From Desulfotomaculum nigrificans DSM 574 (GTDB taxonomy: Bacteria; Bacillota; Desulfotomaculia; Desulfotomaculales; Desulfotomaculaceae): a DNA stretch of 64,000 nucleotides. Location of the stretch: contig NZ_KI912183.1 of NCBI RefSeq assembly GCF_000189755.2, forward strand, positions 1,614,257 through 1,678,256, given 5' to 3'. Below the pieces are notes generated by a model. That model saw only the letters and a program-made list of their open reading frames with translations. It was not told the origin of the DNA and searched no databases. Position numbers and translations under genes: made by a program. Positions 54,506 through 62,514 of the stretch are shown piece after piece (the stretch's first letter is position 1; the number at the start of each line of letters is the position of its first letter).

Positions 54506-55258
54506 CTAGGGAGTTTGTAGCAAATCTTGTACCACGGCACCGGCCAGTACTAATCCGGCGGCTGCCGGCACAAAGGAAATACTGCCGGGGGCCAGTGAAT
54601 AATTGCCCCCCCTGGGCGCAGGAAGTTTATCAGGGTTGACCTTAGCCACCTGTGCCCGGGGGGTGATTGGTGGTTCCAGTGAAAAGACAACTTTCACCCC
54701 TTTATCAATACCGGCCTTACGCAGTTCCCGGCGCACCACCCGGGCCAACGGGTCCACAGAGGTTTCCGCTATATCGGCCACCCGAAAGGCAGCGGGATTA
54801 AGCTTGTTGCCGGCACCCATACTGGAAATTACCGGAATGTGTTGGTTATAACACCTTTTAATGATATCCAGTTTACCGGTGACGTTGTCGATGGCGTCCA
54901 CTACGTAAGAATAGTCCGGTTTAATTAATTCATCACCGTTATCCGGTGTATAGAACTTTTTGACCGGTGTGACCCTGGCTGCCGGATTAATCAATTTAAC
55001 CCGCCGGGCCATTAGATCCACCTTGTACTGGCCAACAGTATTGTCTAAGGCATGCAACTGCCTGTTAATGTTAGTAATATCCACCGTATCAAAGTCCACC
55101 AGCACCAATTCGCCTATACCCGCCCGGGCCAGGGCCTCCACAACGTAAGAACCAACCCCGCCTACGCCAAAAACAGCCACCCTGGCCGCTGCCAGTTTAG
55201 CCAAACCTTCCGGGCCAATTAACATTTCTGTTCTGGAAAACCTGTGTGCCGTTGTCAC
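54506..55258 (-). CDS. tcdA: tRNA threonylcarbamoyladenosine dehydratase TcdA
   Basis: A 250-residue E1-like enzyme: VAVFGVGGVGSYVVEALARA for nucleotide binding, VLVDFDTVDITNINRQLHAL with the adenylation Arg, and SYVVDAIDNVTGKLDIIKRC. It cyclises t6A37 of tRNA. The last part, GAGNKLNPAAFRVADIAETS, is typical of TcdA and not of ThiF. The start is the GTG at 55258, eight bases after GGGAGG; frames further up overlap the leader. It lies near aspS, as in Bacillus subtilis. Confidence 0.93.
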   Translation of the reverse strand: MTTAHRFSRTEMLIGPEGLAKLAAARVAVFGVGGVGSYVVEALARAGIGELVLVDFDTVDITNINRQLHALDNTVGQYKVDLMARRVKLINPAARVTPVKKFYTPDNGDELIKPDYSYVVDAIDNVTGKLDIIKRCYNQHIPVISSMGAGNKLNPAAFRVADIAETSVDPLARVVRRELRKAGIDKGVKVVFSLEPPITPRAQVAKVNPDKLPAPRGGNYSLAPGSISFVPAAAGLVLAGAVVQDLLQTP

Positions 55259-55316
55259 TGAAATCCTCCCGTACAAAAACTATTTGTATGTTAAATAAGG
55301 GTGTTTAAGAACCGAT

Positions 55317-57471: not shown

Positions 57472-58581
57472 TTAGCTATTTTGTGAACTCTTATCCCCTA
57501 TTATGATATTAACTGACATAGTTTGTCCAGCCCGCACCACCACCATGGGCACCTTTTGACCCGGCTTGGTTTCAGCCACCGCATCCAATAAATCCTGAGG
57601 GTCGGTCATGTTTTTACCGTTAAATTGCATGATTATATCTCCGGGCTTAAGGCCTGTATTTTGGGCCGGACTACCGGGAACCACGCCGGCCACCATGATA
57701 CCCCTGGCATCCTGGGTGGGCTGCACGCTGACCCCGATGTATGGATGAGAAACAGTTCCTTTAGTAATTAACTGGTTATATACAGAGACCACTGTGGAAG
57801 AAGGTATAGCAAAACCAATACCCTGAGCCTCGGCATTAACCGCCGTGTTCACCCCCACTACTTCACCGTTGAGGTTAATCAGAGGACCGCCGGAGTTACC
57901 GGGGTTAATGGAGGCGTCTGTTTGCAGCAGGTTGCGAAACTTCTTGTCGTCAATGGTAACCGGTCTACCCTTAGCGCTAATAACACCTACTGTTACAGTG
58001 TGGTCTAAACCATAGGGGTTACCGATGGCAATGACCCAGTCACCCACTTCAATGTTATCCGAGTTACCTAACTTTAGTGTAGGTAAACCCTGGGCGTCAA
58101 TTTTTAGTACGGCCAAATCCAAATCATGGTCCGCCCCAATCACCCGGGCCATGTAAGTCTTATTGGTGGATAGAGTCACTTTAATCTGGCTGGCCCCTTC
58201 AATAACGTGGTTGTTGGTTAAAATATAACCATCCGGGGACACAATAAAACCGGAGCCCAGACCTTGCTGCACCCGGGTCAGGGGAATACCCTGGCTACGG
58301 AAAAACTGTCTAAAAAAGGGATCGGATAAATAGGGATTGGTGGATTCCACAACGGTTTCAATTTTTACCACCGCCGGGGCCGTCTGTTTGACTACATCAG
58401 CTATATTAGCCGGTCTGATGATACCTTGTTCCGCCATGGCTGGTTTATCGCCAATGGAAAGGAGATGCTGTTGAGTGGTGGACCAGTGAATCCCCACCGC
58501 CAGCAACAATACCATCACCACTGTTTTAGCCAGAAAAACTGCCGCTGGTTTACCCCACCTGCTATTAAATTTAAAACTCAT
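57472..58581 (-). CDS. htrA: HtrA/DegP-type serine protease with PDZ domain
   Basis: A 369-residue membrane-anchored protease: N-terminal hydrophobic helix (FLAKTVVMVLLLAVGIHWST), trypsin-like domain with His in YILTNNHVIEGASQI, Asp in DHDLDLAVLKIDAQ and Ser in SINPGNSGGPLINLNGEVVG, then one PDZ domain (GSPAQNTGLKPGDIIMQFNG). It degrades or refolds damaged envelope proteins outside the membrane. The ATG at 58581 is seven bases after AGGAGGAGAT. It is the first gene of a run with the two-component system. Confidence 0.94.
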   Translation of the reverse strand: MSFKFNSRWGKPAAVFLAKTVVMVLLLAVGIHWSTTQQHLLSIGDKPAMAEQGIIRPANIADVVKQTAPAVVKIETVVESTNPYLSDPFFRQFFRSQGIPLTRVQQGLGSGFIVSPDGYILTNNHVIEGASQIKVTLSTNKTYMARVIGADHDLDLAVLKIDAQGLPTLKLGNSDNIEVGDWVIAIGNPYGLDHTVTVGVISAKGRPVTIDDKKFRNLLQTDASINPGNSGGPLINLNGEVVGVNTAVNAEAQGIGFAIPSSTVVSVYNQLITKGTVSHPYIGVSVQPTQDARGIMVAGVVPGSPAQNTGLKPGDIIMQFNGKNMTDPQDLLDAVAETKPGQKVPMVVVRAGQTMSVNIIIGDKSSQNS

Positions 58582-58667
58582 TTTTAATATCTCCTCCTCC
58601 TTCAATGAATTTTACAAGTTAATCATAAAGGGTCACCCTTAAAACAAACTTAAAAGAGATATTAAAA

Positions 58668-58703
58668 TACAAAAAAACACCTCCAAAAAATGGAGATGTT
58701 TTT
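58668..58703 (-). terminator. Terminator of the 6S-like RNA
   Basis: Minus strand: AACATCTCCA-TTTTT-TGGAGGTGTT followed by TTTTTTG. Confidence 0.75.
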
Positions 58704-58704
58704 A

Positions 58705-58938
58705 AAGTCATATCTTTAATTAAAGACAAACCCCACCGTGCCGTTGGTAAACTCAAAGTTTTTTGAACCTGTTCCCCAACAGGTGGGTACCCTACTGCAA
58801 CTTCCTGTTTCCTTATACTATGTAAGGTCTACATTCCCTTGCAGAAAGCGGGTTCCCTTTTAATAGATGTTGGCTCAAAACTTCAAGTGTCCAACGCACA
58901 AAGCAGGGCATTAATTGCTACAGATTTGTTATTTTTTA
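58705..58938 (-). ncRNA. ssrS: 6S-like RNA
   Basis: A gene-free region whose minus strand folds as a long rod. The closing stem pairs GTGCGTTGG (58891-58899) with CCAACGGCAC (58738-58747). A second stem pairs ACTTGAAGTTTTGAGCC with GGTTCAAAAAACTTTGAGT, an internal loop follows, and a distal stem pairs GGGAACCC with GGGTACCC and CTGCAA with TTGCAG, closed by CCTTA and TAAGG at the tip. This is the 6S layout: long duplex with a central bubble mimicking an open promoter. A promoter (TTGCCA at 58969, TAACAT at 58946, 17 bp apart) lies upstream and a terminator downstream. In B. subtilis one 6S RNA (bsrA) also lies beside aspS. It would bind housekeeping RNA polymerase. Ends are approximate. Confidence 0.75.
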
Positions 58939-58945
58939 CACTTTT

Positions 58946-58974
58946 ATGTTAACACATGCTTAAACCATTGGCAA
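58946..58974 (-). promoter_or_regulatory. Promoter of the 6S-like RNA
   Basis: TTGCCA (58974-58969) and TAACAT (58951-58946) on the minus strand with a 17-bp spacer, the only good sigma-A-type promoter in this stretch. Confidence 0.65.
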
Positions 58975-59087
58975 GGTCCGGTTAATAAGTCCTGACACCC
59001 ATATTCTGTAATTCTTTATAAAAGTTTATACTTTTGGGCAGACCGGCATTTCCTTCAGAAAAGGCCGGTCTACCTTGCAAAAAAAGT

Positions 59088-60893
59088 CTATTTATCGCTA
59101 TTATTTTTGACCACAGCGGTACTACGAATATGCAGTTCCACTAACTGGGCCGGGTCCACCACATCTGGCGCCTGGGTCATCAAGCAGGTGGCACTGGCAG
59201 TTTTGGGAAAGGCAATGACATCCCGGATACTGTCCTTACCGGTCAGCAGCATAACCAGACGATCAAAGCCAAAGGCAATGCCGCCATGGGGAGGTGCCCC
59301 GTACTCAAAGGCTTCCAGCATAAAGCCAAATTTCTCCTTAGCTTCTTCCGGACCTAAGCCCAGGGCCTTGAACATTAATTCTTGCACATCCCGGCGATGA
59401 ATCCGAATACTTCCGCCACCTACCTCCACACCGTTTAAGACCATATCGTAGGCTCTGGCCCGCACTTTACCAGGATCAGTTTGCAGCAGGGGAATATCCT
59501 CTTCCACCGGCGATGTAAAAGGGTGGTGCATGGCAAAGTATCGTCCTTCTTCCGCGTCATACTCCAATAGCGGGAAATCAATAACCCACAGGAAATTCCA
59601 CCTGTCCTCCGGAATTAAGTTTAGCCGCTGGGCCAGATGCAAACGCAGGGCCCCCAGGGCCGCTGCCACAACAGCCGGTTTATCCGCCACAAAGAGCAGC
59701 AGGTCACCGGGTTGGGCTTCCAGTTTATCCTTAATGGCAGCTATTTCATCTTCATTAAAGAATTTGGCAATGGGTGATTTTACCGAACCATCCTCATTGA
59801 TCATCATATAAGCCAAGCCCTTGGCTTTATAGACGGCCACAAAGGCAGTGAGGTCGTCAATTTCCTTGCGAGAAAAGGCGGCGCAGCCCTTAGCGTTAAT
59901 GCCTTTAACCTGACCGCCGGCGGCGGCGGCGCTGTTAAACACCTTAAAGCCGCATTTAGCAGCAATGGGAGTTATGTCCTTTAGCTCCATATCAAAACGG
60001 GTATCCGGTTTGTCCGAGCCATAGAGATCCATGGCTTCCTGATAGGAAAGACGCGGGAAAGGAACTTTAATTTCCAGGCCAATGGTATCTTTACATACTT
60101 TGGCAATCATTTGCTCCATTAAACTCATGACGTCATCCGCATCCACAAAGGACATTTCCAGGTCAATCTGGGTAAATTCCGGCTGCCGGTCGGCCCGCAA
60201 ATCTTCATCCCGGAAGCAGCGCACAATTTGGAAGTATTTCTCCATCCCCGCCAGCATTAACAGTTGCTTAAATATCTGGGGAGACTGGGGCAAGGCGTAA
60301 AACTTACCCGGGTTAACCCGGCTGGGTACTAAGTAATCCCTGGCCCCTTCCGGGGTGCTTTTGGTTAACATGGGAGTTTCTATTTCCAGAAAACCGTGGT
60401 TATCTAAGAAATCCCGGACACTTTTGGCGGCCCGGTGGCGCATGATTAAGGACTGCTGCATTTCCGGCCGACGCAGGTCCAGATAACGGTAGCGCAGGCG
60501 TAAATTTTCATCAACATCAATATGGTCTTCAATATAGAAGGGCGGCGTTTTGGCCCGGTTTAGTACCCTTAAAGTATGGGCGTAAACCTCTATTTCTCCG
60601 GTAACCATGTTGGGATTTGCGGTACCCTCCGGTCTTTCTTGAACTTTACCCACTATGGCCAGGACATACTCGTTTCTTACTGCTTCAGCCTTTTTAAAAG
60701 CTGCTTCGTCCACATCCGGGCTAAAAACAATCTGTACCAACCCGGAGCGATCCCTTAAATCCACAAATATTAAGCCTCCGTGGTCCCGGCGGCGCTGCAC
60801 CCAGCCCATTAATACAACTTCCTGGCCCATATGTTGCTTGCTTAATTCGCCGCAGTGATGGGTGCGGCGTAATCCATGCATAGATTCGGACAT
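59088..60893 (-). CDS. aspS: Aspartyl-tRNA synthetase
   Basis: A 601-residue class IIb synthetase. OB-fold anticodon domain first ([34 protein letters not shown]), then catalytic domain with motif 2 [20 protein letters not shown], the bacterial insertion domain (residues about 290-420), and motif 3 [20 protein letters not shown]. Whether it charges only tRNA-Asp or also tRNA-Asn cannot be read from sequence alone. The ATG at 60893 follows GGAGGTACG. It is 43 bases downstream of hisS and shares its T-box-controlled transcript. Confidence 0.97.
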
Positions 60894-60936: not shown

Positions 60937-62196
60937 TTATTGAACTTCCTTAACATAACTGATAATATCAGCCAGCGGCACTTCTTCCTGGCTGCCTGCC
61001 TGCATATTGCGCACCACTGCTACGCCCCGGCTTAGTTCCTCTTCGCCCAGGATAATCACCAGCCGGGCATCCAACTTACCGGCATATTTCATTTGGGCCT
61101 TTAGGCTGCGGCCCAGGTAGTCTTTGTCTGCGGCAATGCCGTGCCGACGCAACTTTTGTACCAGGGCAAAGGACTCAGTTTCCGCCCCGGCACCCACGGT
61201 GGCCACAAATACAGCCGGACCCCGGCTAATGGGGAAGGTAATACCCTGACGCTCCGCCGTCAACAAAATACGCTCCAGGCCCAGGGCAAAGCCAATTCCC
61301 GGTGCAGCGGAACCACCGCAGGCCTCAATCAAGCCGTTATAACGCCCGCCACCGCCAATGGAACTCTGGGCCCCGATATCCCTGGTCATGATTTCAAAGG
61401 CGGTATTAGTGTAGTAATCCAAACCTCTAACCAGCCGGTTATCAACAATGTACTTAACACCCACTGCATCCAGATAACCTTTAACCAATTCAAAGTGGGC
61501 CTGGCATTCGGGGCAAAGGACATCCAGTGTGGTTGGAGCATGCCGACCGATCTCCTGGCATTTTTCGCTCTTACAATCCAAGATGCGCAAGGGGTTGCGG
61601 TCAAAACGCCCCTGGCAGTTGGGACACAACTCTGCCAGTTGGGGGCGGAAATATTCCTGCAGCTTTTGCCTTAATACCGGCCGGCACTGCGGGCAACCCA
61701 CGCTGTTGATGTGTAGTTCCAGATTGGTTAGGCCAATGCGGTGGTAAATATCCATGGCCATGGCAATGACCTCAGCATCAACGGCCGGGCTATTGGATCC
61801 AAAGACCTCCACCCCAAATTGGTGAAACTGCCGAAAACGTCCCGCCTGGGGCCGATCATACCGAAACATGGGGCCGATGTAAAACAGCTTGATGGGCTGG
61901 GGCAGGGCATAAAGTTTATTCTCCAGGTAAGCCCTGACCACGGCGGCGGTGCCTTCCGGCCGCAGAGTAATACTGCGGTCACCCCGGTCCGTAAAGGTAT
62001 ACATTTCCTTTTCTACAATGTCCGTGGTCTCTCCCACTCCCCGGGCAAACAGTTCGGTGTGTTCAAAAATCGGGGTTCTAATTTCACTGTAGCCATATTC
62101 CCGACATACCTGTCGGGCCAGCTCTTCTAAATACTGCCACTTTTCCACTTCACCTGGTAAAATATCATTGGTACCCCTGGGCCTGGTCGTTAACAC
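60937..62196 (-). CDS. hisS: Histidyl-tRNA synthetase
   Basis: A 419-residue class II synthetase: TTRPRGTNDILPGEVEKWQY, ITLRPEGTAAVVRAYLENKL, GPMFRYDRPQAGRFRQFHQF, and the His-specific LVRGLDYYTNTAFEIMTRD with SIGGGGRYNGLIEACGG. A zinc-type Cys cluster occurs in the insertion (CPNCQGRF, CPECQAHF). The start is the GTG at 62196, behind AAGGAGGG; frames upstream of it are part of the leader. Transcription is controlled by the T-box just upstream, which couples it with aspS to uncharged tRNA. Confidence 0.97.
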   Translation of the reverse strand: MLTTRPRGTNDILPGEVEKWQYLEELARQVCREYGYSEIRTPIFEHTELFARGVGETTDIVEKEMYTFTDRGDRSITLRPEGTAAVVRAYLENKLYALPQPIKLFYIGPMFRYDRPQAGRFRQFHQFGVEVFGSNSPAVDAEVIAMAMDIYHRIGLTNLELHINSVGCPQCRPVLRQKLQEYFRPQLAELCPNCQGRFDRNPLRILDCKSEKCQEIGRHAPTTLDVLCPECQAHFELVKGYLDAVGVKYIVDNRLVRGLDYYTNTAFEIMTRDIGAQSSIGGGGRYNGLIEACGGSAAPGIGFALGLERILLTAERQGITFPISRGPAVFVATVGAGAETESFALVQKLRRHGIAADKDYLGRSLKAQMKYAGKLDARLVIILGEEELSRGVAVVRNMQAGSQEEVPLADIISYVKEVQ

Positions 62197-62228
62197 AAAA
62201 GTAACCCTCCTTATTCGCCTGACAAATC

Positions 62229-62514
62229 TATAAAAACAACAAACTCCCGTCACTGGCATGCCAAAGGCATTGACCAGGGACGGGAGTTTTTCCCGTGGTG
62301 CCACCCTGCTTGGACAAATACTTGTCCCTCTTTAACGGCGATAACGGCGCCGTTCCCGGACCGGCCTACTAAGACTGTCTGTCCTTTCGGGGGTCACTCC
62401 CGGGTGTTCTTCAGCTAATGTTCCTGCAGCGGGGCTTTCAGTCCAGGGCCCCACCTCCCTGGGCAAGCAGCAAAAGCCTACTCTCCCGATCATAGCTTTA
62501 ACCAACATAAATCT
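62229..62514 (-). promoter_or_regulatory. T-box leader of hisS-aspS
   Basis: The T-box consensus AGGGTGGCACCACGGG is at 62307-62292 on the minus strand, followed by an ACTCCCGTC...GACGGGAGT terminator (62287-62243) with a T tract. Upstream lies about 200 nt of stem I-type structure. A CAC triplet in GAAGAACACCCG (minus, at 62406-62404) is a candidate His specifier. Uncharged tRNA would stabilise the antiterminator and allow hisS and aspS transcription. Confidence 0.92.

Follow-up and report, generated by a model that had tools for sequence, protein, structure and literature searches.

The element at positions 58912-58726 on the minus strand of the window is a complete 6S (SsrS) RNA. The window is the whole stretch of DNA analysed, 64,000 nucleotides from Desulfotomaculum nigrificans DSM 574, and positions are counted from its first letter. 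The element is almost certainly the 6S-1-type 6S RNA gene of this Desulforamulus-type bacterium. Judged from its sequence, it has promoter-like and terminator sites of its own, a conserved rod interrupted by a central bubble, and a putative pRNA template that is also conserved. It is an ordinary 6S RNA gene in the expected place beside aspS, and the finding itself is not new. What may be new are two by-products of the analysis, namely an extended -10 element in all 40 6S-1-type copies and a second paralogue located behind tRNA-Ala after rnpB.

58726-58912, minus strand: 6S (SsrS) RNA, 6S-1 type, body covered by the model (RF00013, covariation, 6S-1-type clade)

The Rfam covariance-model search places RF00013 at 58912-58726 with 108.1 bits (E 7.7e-21, model positions 1-187). 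The score is more than twice the curated cut-off of 46.4 bits. A sequence-only reading of the same DNA had proposed a 6S-like RNA beside aspS, without giving a strand, and had named this search as the check; the proposal is borne out, on the minus strand. Only two matches in the whole window reach the Rfam gathering thresholds, the 6S RNA and a T-box. The genome that holds the 6S RNA is 3.05 Mb in a single contig. No ORF of at least 60 amino acids overlaps 58705-58974 on either strand, in line with the non-coding gene that had been proposed. The fold of the RNA has an energy of -66.8 kcal/mol versus a mean of -49.6 for shuffled sequences (z -3.9), and none of 200 shuffles is equally stable.

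A 6S match is present in 40 of 41 genomes, comprising the window genome and 40 relatives, and in all 36 of those with completeness of 90% or more and contamination of 5% or less. Class-wide, 6S RNA is found in 108 of 113 genomes and in 79 of the 80 that pass the same filter; the class set and the set of relatives overlap. The 59 copies were sorted by their neighbours. In thirty-five, a same-strand aspS lies upstream or a same-strand tcdA downstream at no more than 400 nt (34 assigned by rule, G009 by hand); the other 24 have neither. In a maximum-likelihood tree the copies split into groups of 40 and 19 with support of 100/100, and the window copy falls in the 6S-1-type group; this tree is unrooted, contains these 59 copies only, without any Bacillus sequence, and has L173 flagged for a long branch. 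The names 6S-1-type and 6S-2-type are given by the pRNA site and aspS linkage. The clade of 40 is made up of the 35 linked copies and five displaced ones (G021, G022, G025, G033, and G035), which gives every genome that has a 6S match, 40 in all, one 6S-1-type copy. Within roughly 5 kb of the five displaced copies, the same strand shows no match to aspS, hisS, or tcdA. The aspS linkage and the pRNA site suggest one old 6S-1 gene held in common with Bacillus.

The structure was assessed on an alignment of the 35 aspS/tcdA-linked orthologues, using the Rfam structure. Two-sided changes are seen in 24 of 50 pairs; the shuffled mean is 15.4, and none of 500 shuffles reaches 24, which supports the rod fold of the earlier proposal. 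Paired cells amount to 82.9%, compared with 39-49% when partners are slid, and the covariation score is 0.215 versus 0.126 in shuffles, of which none in 500 is as high. A weaker measure, the number of further pair types, gives 58 versus 53.5, and 21 of 500 shuffles reach 58. In the closing stem, seven outer pairs (columns 2-4 and 8-11 of alignment A1) fail to form in about one-third to three-quarters of the sequences; in the apical arm, a few (66-132 and 74-128) fail in most of the 35. RNAalifold on the same alignment recovers both arms and the 3'-bubble stem. These compensatory changes support two helical arms around the central bubble in the window 6S RNA. The open central bubble that had been claimed is present with the rod in the consensus, but the minimum-energy fold of the window sequence closes part of it by an extra 4-bp helix.

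The RNA lies in the following neighbourhood.

60937-62304, minus strand: hisS, start uncertain as the listed ORF overlaps the T-box (TIGR00442, 518.8 bits, cut-off 286.75)
59088-60893, minus strand: aspS, directly upstream of 6S on the same strand (NCBIfam aspartate--tRNA ligase, 915 bits, cut-off 443)
57472-58605, minus strand: htrA/degP-like serine protease gene, the first between 6S and tcdA (TIGR02037, 369 bits, below the cut-off of 416)
54506-55276, minus strand: tcdA-like (ThiF family) gene, 3.45 kb downstream (best NCBIfam match TcdA, 183.7 bits, below the cut-off of 304)

The gene order is hisS-aspS-6S, with a gap of 178 nt between aspS and 6S. A T-box leader (62502-62273, minus strand, 98.7 bits) precedes hisS-aspS, and T-boxes are found at a like place in five of 18 tested aspS loci. 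As the sequence-only reading stated, aspS is the direct upstream neighbour on the same strand. This arrangement is found in 33 of the 35 orthologous loci, including that of the window; of the other two, G019 has hisS-aspS inverted, and in G009 a partial aspS lies 5.4 kb away. In a separate scan of 18 aspS loci, picked from 80 to spread over organisms and sharing some organisms with the 35-locus set, 6S stands just behind aspS in 14, including Carboxydothermus, Thermosyntropha, and Syntrophomonas. The loci L065, L067, L076, and L100 have no 6S behind aspS. The downstream side is more variable: the gene directly after 6S is tcdA in 18 of the 35 loci, htrA in seven, and neither in ten. In the window, the htrA-like protease gene, a response regulator gene, and a histidine kinase gene (58605-55317, minus strand) separate 6S from tcdA, so that tcdA is not the immediate neighbour it had been taken for. 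The same three genes intervene in seven of the nine Desulforamulus genomes, the window genome among them, and in the other two (G007 and G008) tcdA follows 6S directly. We take yrvM of B. subtilis to be a tcdA homologue. The suggested parallel with the bsrA locus is sound, as aspS and yrvM flank bsrA according to passages of PMC11077062 and the aspS-6S order recurs throughout most of the orthologous loci.

Three further elements bound the RNA.

58946-58974, minus strand: promoter, with the -35 box TTGCCA (58974-58969), a 17-bp spacer, and the extended -10 element TGT TAACAT ending at 58946 (genus alignment, 40 of 40 copies)
58913-58939, minus strand: predicted 5' leader (promoter placement, 5' end of the Rfam match)
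58673-58703, minus strand: intrinsic terminator with a 13-pair stem, 5-nt loop, and T-run (terminator scan)

The 17-bp-spaced promoter of the earlier proposal is found at 58974-58946, as TTGCCA and TAACAT with a preceding TG. Six promoter-like sites occur in 57500-60500 versus 4.1 expected, and the window site alone is not significant. Conservation is more telling. TTG followed by a 17- or 18-nt spacer and TGnTAnnnT lies within 100 nt upstream of all 40 6S-1-type copies and in 0.85% of mononucleotide shuffles, under a rule that was written after the upstream sequences had been inspected. The spacer is 17 nt in 36 of these promoters and 18 nt in four, and TGTTAACAT is read in 21 of the 40. Under the same rule, eight of the 19 6S-2-type copies match, compared with 1.6% of shuffles. 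The retention of TAACAT instead of the consensus TATAAT across the order is notable. The extended -10 stretch TGTTAACA within 58974-58946 is a perfect palindrome. The idea of a regulon that shares this palindrome (TGTTAACA, at the -10 box) was examined and rejected: a search of the genome with one mismatch gave 23 matches versus 13 in the reversed control, using an 18-nt gap that excludes the window site itself. The exact pattern TTG-N17-TGNTAACAT has 10 matches in the genome, window site included, versus one in the control, and its TATAAT version has 24 versus two. Since such matches are found elsewhere in the genome, these promoters are not unique to 6S and do not establish a special regulator.

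With a transcription start about 7 nt past the -10 box, the precursor would be about 270 nt long, with a 27-nt leader that would need trimming. At the other end, seven terminator-like sites occur in 57500-60500 versus 3.8 expected. Inspection by eye finds a similar ACATCTC-type hairpin with a T-run after 6S in nine of 10 family orthologues, G003 being the one that lacks it. The terminator that had been claimed is present, but it lies just outside the 58705-58974 interval that had been assigned to the gene.

Two elements within the RNA bear on its predicted release from RNA polymerase.

58869-58882, minus strand: predicted pRNA template AGUUUUGAGCCAAC, RNA positions 31-44, start opposite C44 (motif and B. 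subtilis pRNA)
58767-58784, minus strand: 3'-central-bubble hairpin ACCUGUU-GGGG-AACAGGU, seven pairs, overlapping the 3' strand of P2 (segment folding)

Read backwards from RNA position 44, the predicted pRNA is 5'-GUUGGCUCAAAACU. The published pRNA of B. subtilis 6S-1 is 5'-GUUCGGUCAAAACU (excerpts of PMC12005410); the two are identical at 12 of 14 positions and both begin with G. The template motif CCAA[CT]A is present in all 40 6S-1-type copies and in none of the 19 6S-2-type copies, and 39 of the 40 retain the initiating C. When a 26-nt segment is folded alone, the 3'-bubble hairpin is in place in 30 of the 35 orthologues by a crude rule; the rule fails in G011, G012, G028, G037, and G039; G012 and G028 still form the hairpin, with extra outer pairs. 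Blocking the 14-nt pRNA site in the folding of the window RNA yields the 7-bp 3'-bubble hairpin, which borrows P2-strand bases. In this blocked fold, computed with one energy model, the collapse helix known from the B. subtilis central bubble does not form. Release routes for the B. subtilis and E. coli RNAs are described in sections of PMC8876501. By analogy with these two species, the window RNA would mimic an open promoter and, when nutrients are scarce, would occupy RNA polymerase carrying the housekeeping sigma factor. On the return of NTPs, the polymerase would copy a short GTP-initiated pRNA from the bubble, and 6S would be released. This copying would open helix P2, and the freed 3' strand could then complete the 7-bp hairpin in the 3' bubble.

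The window genome has a second 6S gene outside the window, at G000:C1:1201869-1202044 (78.3 bits, 6S-2-type).

L176:4870-5130 (G000:C1:1201869-1202129), minus strand: second, 6S-2-type RNA, starting after tRNA-Ala(GGC)

The tRNA-Ala(GGC) gene ends 9 nt before this 6S, the end of rnpB lies 190 nt upstream of it, and all are on one strand. No promoter is seen between tRNA-Ala and 6S. By eye, TTGCAT and TAAAAT with a 17-nt spacer and a TG ahead precede tRNA-Ala; a stricter promoter scan over the tRNA-Ala/6S-2 stretch lists none, against a chance expectation of 1.1. A terminator is found 3' of the second 6S. Both rnpB and tRNA-Ala lie upstream within about 1.1 kb in five of the nine genus genomes. 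Each of the nine has one rnpB, which is 17-59 kb off in G004, G005, and G006 and on another contig in G007.

The association with rnpB extends to family f16, where both loci of a first set have rnpB 62-207 nt upstream, in the same orientation. Another 20 loci were picked by low score as probable second copies, which are known by their score and stand outside the tree. Among these, rnpB is 62-207 nt upstream in 13 of 14 f16 loci with an above-threshold 6S. The f16 locus L227 has a 6S without rnpB upstream. The other six low-score loci, one of f16 with a sub-threshold 6S and five of f3 and f8, are all without rnpB, and none was found in the stretches examined at the seven non-f16 loci of the first set.

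The rnpB-6S loci of f16 (15): L183, L184, L223, L224, L225, L228, L229, L230, L231, L233, L234, L235, L236, L237, and L238

In G020 (two loci), G032, and G037, a 6S-2-type copy has tRNA genes no more than 161 nt away, and no tRNA gene is found near the 6S-1-type gene in the 35 aspS-group loci or the five displaced ones. At L173:46-424 (minus strand), a 6S-2-type gene sits between tRNA-Leu(TAA) and tRNA-Gly(TCC), with a spacing of 16 nt on either side and, further upstream, a partial match to 16S rRNA. At L163:4897-5335 (minus strand), G027 carries a tandem pair of 6S-2-type genes 75 nt apart. Tandem 6S genes are reported for the Bacillus cereus group (PMC7726162). We tentatively propose, as a real possibility, that it is the second paralogue and not the window copy that is tied to the tRNA-making machinery. 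On this reading, a 6S-2-type gene lies downstream of rnpB in two families of the order. In the window genome, where no promoter of its own is recognisable, it may derive from a tRNA-Ala(GGC)-6S-2 transcript and would then be produced in growth from the tRNA promoter, while the 6S-1 of the window would come from the conserved TAACAT promoter.

The presence of this paralogue raises the idea that it is the working 6S and that the window copy is degenerate and decaying. We consider this highly improbable, since the window copy has the higher score of the two (108.1 versus 78.3 bits), retains its promoter, terminator, predicted pRNA template, and paired arms, and is of the type present in all 40 genomes with a 6S match. 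The alignment of the RNA with hisS-aspS invites another explanation, in which the 6S fold, instead of inhibiting the polymerase, works chiefly in cis between aspS and htrA, for example by stabilising transcript ends or by attenuation. No U-tract terminator is found between aspS and the 6S promoter by eye or in the terminator scan, and passages of PMC11077062 describe aspS- and yrvM-extended bsrA transcripts on sigma-A polymerase in B. subtilis. Such a mainly cis role is hardly credible, however, because the downstream gene varies among the 35 loci, the five displaced genomes keep a 6S-1-type copy away from aspS, hisS, and tcdA, and the promoter and pRNA site are kept throughout. We retain the reading as a 6S-1-type 6S RNA gene.

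A well-marked 6S-1 RNA is now in hand for the Desulforamulus/Desulfotomaculum lineage, and a second 6S gene beside rnpB and a tRNA provides a concrete case for why some bacteria keep two 6S RNAs. In the open-licence literature, the only match for 6S RNA with the genus name Desulfotomaculum is on Geobacter. The main survey of 6S RNAs is reportedly that of Wehner and others. Among the matches listed in the open-licence literature, including passages of PMC6582537 and PMC4986893, there is no description of a 6S gene beside rnpB or within a tRNA operon; we make no claim of its absence from print. The second paralogue can be compared with CoRP RNA of Corynebacterium, which sections of PMC11077062 call a completely new RNA type with close homologues in Corynebacterium only.

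The window RNA itself can be set beside three known 6S RNAs. It shares its Rfam family with E. coli 6S (SsrS), as matched in the control genome. The pRNA of E. coli 6S starts with A, whereas the predicted window pRNA begins with G, and the E. coli gene context is ssrS-ygfA. In E. coli, too, the freed 3' strand of P2 joins the release hairpin (parts of PMC8876501). As with 6S-2 (bsrB) of B. subtilis, the window genome has a second 6S paralogue; the window copy belongs to the other clade, and 6S-2-type serves here as a label and not as a claim of identity with bsrB. B. subtilis 6S-1 (bsrA) resembles the window RNA in its rod fold, in aspS on the 5' side and yrvM, of the tcdA type, on the 3' side, in the GTP-initiated pRNA, which is predicted here, and in the small 3'-bubble hairpin (parts of PMC8876501). 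It differs in that tcdA is displaced here by htrA and a two-component system, and in that the blocked fold here gives a hairpin using the 3' strand of P2 instead of the collapse helix.
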